Below are positions 16,789 through 19,674 of a stretch of 64,000 bases of DNA, one piece after another (position 1 is the stretch's first letter; each line of letters starts with the position of its first letter). The stretch lies in assembly GCA_020073265.1 (NCBI GenBank), contig JAIQFN010000002.1, positions 62,001 through 126,000 of the forward strand. Reading direction: 5' to 3'. Source of the stretch: Terriglobia bacterium (GTDB lineage Bacteria > Acidobacteriota > Terriglobia > Bryobacterales > Bryobacteraceae). The notes under the pieces are model-generated. The model saw only the letters and a program-made list of their open reading frames with translations. It was not told where the DNA came from and did not search any database. The translations under genes were made by a program, and so were the position numbers.

Positions 16789-16857
16789 TTGGCGGGGACG
16801 ACGGGGCTCGAACCCGCGACCTCCGACGTGACAGGCCGGCGTTCTAACCAGCTGAAC
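16789..16857 (-). repeat. tRNA-Asp 3' fragment (left attachment-like repeat)
   Basis: Identical over 69 bp to 19597-19665. It keeps the CCA, T-arm, anticodon arm (GTC) and D-arm, but the 5' acceptor strand is replaced by unrelated sequence, so it cannot fold as a tRNA. It ends 2 nt before the stop of the PemK-like gene. Confidence 0.85.
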
Positions 16858-16859
16858 AA

Positions 16860-17381
16860 TCAGCCTGTCTTAGGCTTTCCAGGTACGGGTTTGGCAGGTT
16901 CGGCTGGAAGGGTTACTTTTGCCTTCTCGTCGGCGGGTGAATCCTGCAGGTTCACTGGTTGCCGACGTATCCCAGCACCCATCATGAATAAGAGCCCGGC
17001 CTCAATGGCACCGAGACCGACTTGATCCACGGTTCCAACTCGCGGACCCGTGATGCGATCAACGCTGAAATGCCTTATCGATTCTGGCAGCGCAATACTT
17101 TCATCATGAAAGACATCGGCATGCTGCTGACCTTGGTCCGGTTTCTTCGATACAGCCAAGATACGGATGCGGAAAAACCTGAAATCTCCTTCGTCCTTCG
17201 GTCGCTTTGTCTGCTTGTTGTGAAGACTGGTTAGTGGAATAGCAGTAAACACCTTGAGGGCCCGATTGAGTTGCCCTATAGACAACACGACCCACCAGTG
17301 CGGGCCGTAGAATTCGTGACCTACTATTTCGCTCTTTGGTACATCGATGTGATAGATGTCGCCGCGCTCGGGGTGAGGCAC
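16860..17381 (-). CDS. PemK/MazF-like toxin-family protein
   Basis: A 173-residue protein whose N-terminal two-thirds fit the PemK/MazF fold: RGDIYHIDVPKSEIVGHEF, then WWVVLSIGQLN, FTAIPLTSL and the C-terminal VDRITGPRVGTVDQVGLGAIEAGLLFM. Family members are mRNA endoribonucleases, usually encoded after an antitoxin. Here it carries an extra Pro/Lys-rich tail of about 40 residues. The start is GTG with GGAG 5 nt upstream. It lies 19 nt downstream of a 254-residue gene that does not look like a usual antitoxin. Assignment is by pattern only; conserved catalytic Arg/Thr residues are plausible but not certain. Confidence 0.6.
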   Translation of the reverse strand: MPHPERGDIYHIDVPKSEIVGHEFYGPHWWVVLSIGQLNRALKVFTAIPLTSLHNKQTKRPKDEGDFRFFRIRILAVSKKPDQGQQHADVFHDESIALPESIRHFSVDRITGPRVGTVDQVGLGAIEAGLLFMMGAGIRRQPVNLQDSPADEKAKVTLPAEPAKPVPGKPKTG

Positions 17382-17400
17382 CTAGTCTCCAAACCGCTCA

Positions 17401-18165
17401 TCATGAACTCGCGTACTCCTGCTCAAGATCTTTGCCGATAGACTCGAAATCGATTTTCTCATAATCCGCGATGTACTGCGGATCAATGACAGATCGTGCG
17501 AAGGCGTAAGACATAACCGAATGTCGGAAACCTTCCATAAGAGCATAGAACACATCGTCAGTCGGTGTGATCCTGTGAGCAATTGCGAATACGATGCACT
17601 CCAAATGAAGCAGTGACCACCACTCCGAGGAGATGGCGGACTGGTATTCCTTCAGCGAGCTACGCGGCAATCGGCTTTGGCGAATATTCTCGAGTACGTC
17701 TTGCGCCAAAAAATGGGCACGATGCAACGAACTTAAGCAAAACAATGCTTCGTCCTTTGCTCCGGCGTGCGGCGCAAGGAGATGCGTATCAGCCTCGAGA
17801 AACTTCGAAAGACCAGCAAAGGCGGCATTTGCAATGGCGACCTCATCTCTAGATTTGTTGATTACGCGCCAGATAGTCGAAATGGCTTCACTCATTTCGA
17901 TGTATTCAGGGAACAACTCCCGTCTCAACTCTTCAAATTGAGCAGTTGATCGTGCGGTCACGAGTAAGCGAAAGATTGTCGTGTCGAGACGCTTTCGCAA
18001 GTCGCTTGCGGTCTTAACCTCTGCACTGCGCTTTTTTCTGAATCGGAGGATGCGCTTACGTGGCTTGGGAGACGCGACGGTCTCCTCTGGAAATTTCGGA
18101 GTCCGGTACACGGACGCAGGAAACATCTTAACGATGTCTCGATCGTCAGCTACACATTGGCTCAT
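17401..18165 (-). CDS. Hypothetical protein of tRNA-Asp island
   Basis: A 254-residue protein with a basic stretch at about residues 34-48 (PKPRKRILRFRKKRS) and then an all-helical region with several long amphipathic helices (DLRKRLDTTIFRLLVTARST and onward). No signal peptide, transmembrane segment or catalytic motif is seen, and no family is recognised. Lower GC than the chromosome. It is 19 nt upstream of the PemK-like gene and in the same direction, so the two may work together; a toxin-antitoxin relation is only a guess. Confidence 0.6.
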   Translation of the reverse strand: MSQCVADDRDIVKMFPASVYRTPKFPEETVASPKPRKRILRFRKKRSAEVKTASDLRKRLDTTIFRLLVTARSTAQFEELRRELFPEYIEMSEAISTIWRVINKSRDEVAIANAAFAGLSKFLEADTHLLAPHAGAKDEALFCLSSLHRAHFLAQDVLENIRQSRLPRSSLKEYQSAISSEWWSLLHLECIVFAIAHRITPTDDVFYALMEGFRHSVMSYAFARSVIDPQYIADYEKIDFESIGKDLEQEYASS

Positions 18166-18216
18166 TTGAACCCACCAGGGCAGACGTGCAAGCCGGATGC
18201 CAGGTTCAGGCGAGGA

Positions 18217-18405
18217 CTACTTACGCCATCTGGCTCTGTTAGCTTTCTTGGCAATTTCCACACGGCGCTCCGGGGTCAGCACTCTGGCTCTAGCTGGACC
18301 GCCACTAAGACCGGCCCTTCTTGCCCGCTCGGAACGCTTGCTTTCTCCTTTGTTTTCTTCAGTTATGGACTTGATTATCCTGTGAGCATTCCGGTTGATG
18401 TCCAC
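18217..18405 (-). CDS. Tiny basic protein with GGxARAxxLTPERRxEIAKKAxxARW motif
   Basis: A 62-residue protein, strongly basic. Its C-terminal half (AGLSGGPARARVLTPERRVE then IAKKANRARW) is a recurring motif in small bacterial proteins, possibly nucleic-acid binding. The start GTG at 18405 is preceded by GAAGGAG at 8 nt; an upstream GTG at 18423 would add six residues but lies before this site. It is the first gene of the minus-strand group in the island and could be the regulator, by inference. Confidence 0.55.
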   Translation of the reverse strand: MDINRNAHRIIKSITEENKGESKRSERARRAGLSGGPARARVLTPERRVEIAKKANRARWRK

Positions 18406-18551
18406 GTGGGGACACTCCTTCACTCACGGTAGATGCAGACTATCCGCATTGCGATACAGTATTCCACTAATTTCAACAGGTGGCAAGGCCTTAGTTTACT
18501 ACTAGTCCTAGTTGAACATTTTGCTTGACTAAATGTCAACAGTCAAGTGAA

Positions 18552-19407
18552 ATGGTCAGTATGAATCGCTTGGATCTTCCCACTCGGTGTCAAATACTCG
18601 CCGCTCTTGTCGAGGGAAACTCCATCCGGGCGACAGCACGCAGGACCGGTGCGGCAAAGAACACTATCACTAAGCTCCTTGTTGATCTAGGACGGGCCTG
18701 CTTCGACTACCAAGATAGCGTCTTTCGAGACCTTCCGTGCAAGCGCATCGAGGTAGATGAGTGCTGGGCCTTCGGTTATGCCAAGGCAAAGAATGTGACT
18801 CCCGAAATCTCGACCAAGAATCCATTTGGAGCAGACGTATGGACGTGGGCCGCCATTGATGCCGATACAAAGCTGATTCCTTCGTGGGTCATCGGTCCGC
18901 GCGATGGCGTGACAGCGCGAATCTTCGTTGACGATCTCGCAGGGCGCTTGGCGGATCGAATTCAGCTCACCAGCGATGGATTGAATGTCTATCTGCAAGC
19001 TGTTGAGCGCGCATTTCGGGGTCATGTGGACTATGCCCAGCTCGTGAAGATTTACGGCAACACAGCGGAAGGACAGACGCACTACAGCCCCGCTGAGTGC
19101 ATCGGTTGTGAGAAGCACGCCGTGTCTGGCTATCCCGATCCCGAACATATCAGCACCAGCTACGTCGAACGGGCCAACCTGACCATGCGAATGGGGATGC
19201 ACCGGTTCACGCGATTGACTAAGGCGTTTTCAAGAAAGATCGAGAACCATTCTGCTGCCGTCGCGCTCCACATGATGTACTACAATTTCGTCAGAATCCA
19301 CCAGACCCTACGCACCACTCCTGCGATGGCCGCTGGCGTCACGAATAAGCTTTTGGAAATAGCGGACATCGTCGCTCTGTTGGATCATGGAACTTCAAAC
19401 TGACCCA
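18552..19407 (+). mobile_element. IS1-family element, provisional ends
   Basis: The transposase gene is bracketed by an imperfect inverted repeat, ATGGTCAGTATGAA (18552-18565) and TTCAAACTGACCCA (19394-19407), 11 of 14 positions matching. The left end would overlap the transposase start, as in compact IS elements. No clear target-site duplication was found, so the ends are uncertain. Confidence 0.4.
18561..19403 (+). CDS. IS1-family transposase
   Basis: A 280-residue single-frame transposase of the IS1-like group common in Acidobacteriota and Planctomycetes. It has an N-terminal helix-turn-helix (EGNSIRATARRTGAAKNTIT), then the catalytic domain: VDECWAF (first Asp), VWTWAAIDADTKL, QLTSDGLNVYL (second Asp), a conserved YSPAECIGCEK and STSYVERANLTMRMGMHRF (Glu), ending NFVRIHQTLRTTPAMAAGV. 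It appears full length and intact. The start at MNRLDLP matches where family members usually begin; TTG 18525 and ATG 18552 lie upstream in frame. It sits inside the tRNA-Asp island. Confidence 0.9.
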   Translation: MNRLDLPTRCQILAALVEGNSIRATARRTGAAKNTITKLLVDLGRACFDYQDSVFRDLPCKRIEVDECWAFGYAKAKNVTPEISTKNPFGADVWTWAAIDADTKLIPSWVIGPRDGVTARIFVDDLAGRLADRIQLTSDGLNVYLQAVERAFRGHVDYAQLVKIYGNTAEGQTHYSPAECIGCEKHAVSGYPDPEHISTSYVERANLTMRMGMHRFTRLTKAFSRKIENHSAAVALHMMYYNFVRIHQTLRTTPAMAAGVTNKLLEIADIVALLDHGTSN

Positions 19408-19596
19408 CTACCCAATAGCGGGTTCCGAAAAGCCAGGCGAAGGGCGTTGGCGTCGCAAGTACCGTATCAATGCAAAGAGGCAAGTTCAATGATTGGACCC
19501 GGTTCTATTTCTCCTCGGAATCTCCCCGCATGTTTGCCCATGTTTGCGCGAGAGTCACTGAAAAAACGGAAAGCGTAGAAAACAAAAAGCAAGAAG

Positions 19597-19665
19597 TTGG
19601 CGGGGACGACGGGGCTCGAACCCGCGACCTCCGACGTGACAGGCCGGCGTTCTAACCAGCTGAAC
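19597..19665 (-). repeat. Right copy of 69-bp tRNA-Asp direct repeat
   Basis: Identical to 16789-16857 and lying within the intact tRNA-Asp. The preceding 19404-19596 shows no gene that I can support. Confidence 0.85.
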
Positions 19666-19674
19666 TACGTCCCC
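19598..19674 (-). tRNA. tRNA-Asp (anticodon GTC)
   Basis: Complete cloverleaf on the minus strand: acceptor GGGGACG/CGTCCCC, D-stem GTTC/GAAC, anticodon stem CCGGC/GTCGG with loop CTGTCAC (anticodon GTC), T-stem GCGGG/CCCGT with loop TTCGAGC, discriminator G and encoded CCA (19598-19600). It is the intact copy; its 3' end faces the accessory island. Confidence 0.95.

Follow-up and report, generated by a model that had tools for sequence, protein, structure and literature searches.

A tRNA-Asp island that is probably a relic of an integrase element, holding a one-ended, toxin-carrying IS1-family transposon

A 69-bp direct repeat of tRNA-Asp sequence bounds a 2.8-kb island in the 64-kb stretch of DNA analysed here (the window). 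The island has no integrase, although an arm homologous to integrase-bearing elements of related genomes adjoins its tRNA gene, and its interior is an IS1-family transposon whose left end is missing. We consider it highly probable that an element integrated at tRNA-Asp, that the transposon inserted into this element and that a deletion followed, leaving a relic resembling a cis-mobilizable element (CIME) around a one-ended, toxin-carrying transposon. The scar at the tRNA is in itself an ordinary relic of the CIME kind; of more interest is the transposon lineage, a variant of the transporter insertion sequences within the IS1 family that has a conserved second protein.

The two copies of the repeat (16789–16857 and 19597–19665, both read on the minus strand) match at 69 of 69 nucleotides. 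One 69-nt run accounts for all exact direct repeats of at least 30 nt in the 64-kb window (40 start positions), which excludes chance. The right, attL-like copy lies within an intact tRNA-Asp(GTC) gene called by ARAGORN (19598–19674, minus strand), in which 7/7 acceptor pairs form. The left, attR-like copy comprises tRNA-Asp positions 10–77 plus one base; the first 9 nt of the tRNA are replaced and its broken acceptor stem forms 2/7 pairs. ARAGORN also called a tRNA here (16794–16866) but, given the different 5′ end and the two remaining pairs, this copy is unlikely to function. The GC content of the island is 0.52, compared with 0.63–0.64 in the flanks. In the open reading frame (ORF) list and Pfam results, no integrase or transfer genes remain between the copies, and the sole ORF of integrase size is the transposase. 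The preliminary description had reported the 69-bp identity, the intact right gene, the left copy without its first 9 nt, the lower GC content and the lack of a tyrosine recombinase, and was accurate on each.

Beside the tRNA-Asp gene, a 164-bp stretch (19434–19597) aligns with the integrase-to-tRNA stretch of two other genomes, G001 (same genus) and G034 (another genus), at 79% over a BLAST piece of 129–132 bp. The alignment takes in CATGTTTGCCCATGTTTGC, plausibly a pair of integrase arm sites, and tandem CATGTTTGC repeats that are common to all and start at 19529 and 19539 in the window. In G001, the tRNA-Asp adjoining AddAB holds an element whose tyrosine recombinase is 470 aa long and combines PF00589 with arm-binding and SAM-like domains. 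The element also encodes an HTH_17 protein of 119 aa with the placement of a putative excisionase (xis-like), as well as VapE-like and PriCT proteins; the contig stops short of the far boundary. The G034 stretch is almost identical to that of G001, over about 2.2 kb that take in the HTH gene, the integrase and the DNA up to tRNA-Asp (L064 5001–7184, L068). Because the estimated contamination of G034 is 10%, this shared stretch may reflect a mis-binned contig, or else recent transfer. Among 237 family genomes, the arm DNA was found in the window genome, G001 and G034, and otherwise as one 24-bp match in G243. The window's own genome yielded no close integrase (best E 3.9e-4), and a search of viral contigs with the integrase gave no relative.

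An integrase about 60% identical also lies beside tRNA-Asp in G056 and G048, and in G083 a 5-kb stretch with an integrase is bounded by tRNA-Asp and a 45-bp partial copy. Short integrase-less stretches occur between tRNA-Asp and partial copies of 49 bp in G052 and 26 bp in G057. The former (L138 6552–8225) spans 1.6 kb and encodes a DUF433 and DUF5615/PIN-like pair, and the latter (L074 6726–7453) spans 0.65 kb and encodes a dual-specificity-phosphatase-like protein; no integrase was seen in either.

The close relative G004 has one tRNA-Asp, which is unoccupied; on one of its contigs KGD and tRNA-Asp/AddAB are separated by about 26 kb and follow each other as they do in the window. We found no genome in which both window flanks are joined at a single tRNA-Asp, and left-flank synteny gave no strict empty site, as tRNA-Arg and SPFH are missing from G001–G004. 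The empty-site comparison proposed in the preliminary description yielded the single unoccupied gene of G004 and no joined flanks. Between KGD and the left repeat, the window (14317–16713) holds a 254-aa ORF, tRNA-Arg(TCT) and an SPFH/Band 7 gene, none of which adjoins KGD in G001–G005; the gap of about 26 kb in G004 is filled by other genes. Taken together, the arm homology, the other tRNA-Asp integrases, the absence of an integrase from the window's own genome and the single tRNA-Asp of G004 indicate that the right end of the island is best interpreted as an attachment arm left behind by an integrase element. The earlier proposal of a scar of integration at a tRNA 3′ end gains from the homologous arm beside tRNA-Asp in G001 and G034, where the integrase is still present.

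The rest of the island is something else. Given a perfect right terminal inverted repeat (TIR) and a toxin stop codon close to the 69-bp repeat, most or all of 16860–19412 is a single IS1-family passenger transposon. It encodes, on the minus strand, a PemK/MazF-like toxin ORF of 173 aa (16860–17381; PF02452, E 4.5e-8), a helical protein whose family was not recognised, here called U254 (17401–18165), and a small basic protein of 68 aa that ends in ARARVLTPERRVEIAKKANRARW (18217–18423) and is a conserved partner of this transposase lineage. A 292-aa IS1-family DDE transposase follows on the plus strand (18525–19403). It matches PF03400 (E 2e-6, above gathering) and NF033558 (E 6e-13, below the cut-off of that model), and its residues D78, D151 and E215 are conserved across 16 relatives, D78 being nearly invariant. 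The right TIR, TCAAACTGACCCACTACC (19395–19412), matches the TIR of relatives perfectly, and CAATAGCG (19413–19420) is the expected right copy of an 8-bp target duplication. What remains of the integrase element amounts to about 185 bp plus the att copies.

The left end of the transposon is absent: no left TIR was found within 5 mismatches, and the window contains no second copy of the 8-bp CAATAGCG. We considered GGTACGGGTTTGG, near 16882, as a degenerate left TIR and did not find it convincing. An initial search for inverted repeats within 300 bp around the transposase had found no ends because these sit beyond the cargo. The PemK stop codon in the window is 2 nt from the 69-bp repeat and the left TIR of relatives lies about 20 bp beyond PemK; since most relatives lack an equivalent of the last 37 residues of the window PemK, the exact left breakpoint may fall inside this tail. 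With the left TIR and left duplication missing, the insertion of this copy is deduced from its relatives, in which the passenger genes are seen within the TIRs, as they presumably once were in the window copy.

These relatives define the unit. The order PemK(−), U254(−), basic protein(−) and IS1-type transposase(+) is repeated in G004, G026, G197 and G211, with the PemK frame broken in G026 and possibly in G211. In G004, G026 and G211 the four genes are enclosed by perfect inverted repeats of 18 bp, GGTAGTGGGTCAGTTTGA, which are flanked by exact 8-bp duplications; G197 has weak ends only, without a duplication. Target duplications in the IS1 family measure 8–9 bp. In all, 13 two-ended relatives have an exact 8-bp duplication. 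For one copy in G001, similar sequences from G001 and G002 continue without a break across the insertion point, contain a single AACGAATC and are the equivalent of an empty site. The preliminary description was right to name a PemK-like toxin and an IS1-type transposase, but these two, with the unknown protein and the basic protein, are not the load of a tRNA element with a stray insertion sequence added: they form one transposon, which in relatives has inverted repeats of its own. Judging by its family, PemK is probably an endoribonuclease toxin. U254, which adjoins PemK in 12 of 13 loci, is the best candidate for its antitoxin; comparison with Pfam, NCBIfam and PADLOC showed no similarity to a known antitoxin, and PADLOC matched neither the window PemK nor U254. 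Its predicted structure is all-helical and of low confidence (mean pLDDT 59).

From these observations we infer the following order of events. A tyrosine-recombinase element specific for tRNA-Asp would have integrated at the 3′ end of the gene and so produced attL and attR as a 69-bp repeat. The IS1-family passenger transposon would then have inserted near the tRNA-side end of the element, close to the attL arm. Finally, a deletion would have taken the integrase, the remaining element and the left TIR of the transposon, up to the attR copy. Classical deletions adjacent to an insertion sequence retain the end of that sequence, whereas here the end is lost, so the classical mechanism does not fit this last step.

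Could the island instead be a still-mobile non-autonomous satellite, with working att sites and arm, that a G001-type integrase excises and moves in trans along with the toxin genes it carries? The two att copies are intact and match exactly, the arm keeps its tandem repeats, every cargo ORF is open and a congener has an integrase of the matching type. However, the window's own genome lacks such an integrase, the attR-side arm appears to have been replaced by the transposon end, and the search for similar ends around other elements, which the preliminary description had recommended, found no second such island among the 237 family genomes. A mobile satellite is thus unlikely. Of the two earlier alternatives, a satellite or a decayed element, decay fits better; it correctly describes the ends, but the genes inside are part of the transposon.

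We regard two further explanations as very improbable. A tandem duplication of tRNA-Asp, with an insertion sequence later entering between the copies, would yield the exact doubling of a 68-nt tRNA stretch, but the left copy is truncated at its 5′ end, an integrase-element arm adjoins the right copy, and G083 has an integrase-bearing island bounded by partial tRNA-Asp copies; nor would such a duplication account for the right end. An assembly chimera, in which two contigs were misjoined through the repeated tRNA sequence, would suit a fragmented assembly (131 contigs) and a left flank that is not syntenic in congeners. Against this, the 5′ junction of the left copy is distinct from that of the right, and a single contig of G004 keeps the order from KGD to tRNA-Asp/AddAB. 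Integration, transposon insertion and deletion remains our preferred account.

The transposase belongs to a larger group. A scan of GTDB found at least 571 relatives, and the records behind the best 80 bear the labels of many phyla, among which there may be metagenome binning errors; a few of these loci are the same records as genomes already used. By script, 54 of these 80 best loci have inverted repeats and an exact 8-bp duplication, compared with 0, 20, 0, 0, 1 and 3 loci in controls with displaced duplications; by reasoning, the 20 loci at offset +2 would be the same ends moved one base inward. A profile of the basic protein matched inside 53 of the 54 two-ended transposons and nowhere in 386 kb outside them, and, as loci were picked for the similarity of their transposase and then served to refine the profile, these figures describe co-occurrence within the lineage rather than genome-wide specificity. 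Such constant company suggests that the basic protein may contribute to transposition or help to control it. Another transposase group, more distant and also present in the window genome, has inverted repeats and duplications that enclose 2.5–4.3 kb, mostly without the basic protein. The window genome itself carries a second, more distant IS1-like passenger transposon of about 2.7 kb (L259; G000:C113:47500–58500) with imperfect inverted repeats and an 8-bp duplication, AGAGCCCC, in which the basic protein was not found.

Cargo in the lineage includes P63C, Bro-N, Schlafen/AlbA_2 and NYN proteins; a HigB-like toxin with an HTH-M78 protein (PD-Lambda-2_B, E 2e-43); RmrA (E 2e-121); AbiEii/OLD-type AAA ATPases; DNA methylases; and proteasome- or SDH-protease-like proteins. 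As the cargo scan covered a chosen sample of copies, that cargo is often of the toxin–antitoxin or anti-phage kind is an impression and not a rate. One copy (L213 2618–5903) carries three such proteins, of which one is the HigB-like toxin and another the PD-Lambda-2_B-like HTH-M78 protein; cargo ORFs alike in size recur in many copies from other phyla (L213, L209, L229, L237, L257 and others). ARAGORN placed a tRNA-Asp(GTC) inside one transposon (L174 9149–9222) and a tRNA-Gln(TTG) inside another (L176 6360–6436), the right end of which is off the contig. We put at about even odds the proposal that these copies form a cross-phylum IS1-family lineage, which uses a DDE transposase with a small basic protein as its obligate partner, and that this lineage serves as a vehicle for toxin–antitoxin and anti-phage genes and is not yet described as such. 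Our search of the literature, mostly outside subscription papers, turned up no paper that describes IS1-family passenger transposons in which a basic protein is the conserved partner.

An IS1 transposase, a hypothetical basic protein and a toxin thus become a mobile unit with exact ends, the cargo of which can be catalogued across genomes. The lineage suggests a candidate accessory protein for transposition and one more way in which genes for defence and toxins may spread, and the tRNA relic illustrates how short integrase-less tRNA islands, open to misreading as satellites, can originate.

CIMEs are relics of integrative and conjugative or mobilizable elements (ICEs and IMEs) that have lost integration and transfer genes and kept attL and attR (PMC5704250). 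By its sequence the island would class as a CIME derived from an integrase-bearing element: it keeps att sites at a tRNA 3′ end and has lost the integrase. It differs in that its source looks satellite-like (integrase, HTH, VapE-like and PriCT proteins) and, as far as seen, not conjugative, and in an interior that is almost wholly transposon. Transporter insertion sequences (tIS) are insertion sequences that carry passenger genes (PMC9330008, PMC7986276). The present lineage shares with them a single transposase, terminal inverted repeats, a short target duplication and passenger genes, but it is of the IS1 family, has a conserved second protein in nearly every copy, is spread widely across phyla and, in the copies sampled, has cargo rich in toxin–antitoxin and anti-phage genes. 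Tn3-family transposons likewise carry toxin–antitoxin pairs within the transposon (PMC7157771), but their transposase is of another family, and no resolvase was recognised in the copies examined here. Tn7-like transposons also carry defence genes (PMC8649781), whereas the present copies are about 2–4 kb long and combine an IS1-type DDE transposase with no recognised targeting genes.
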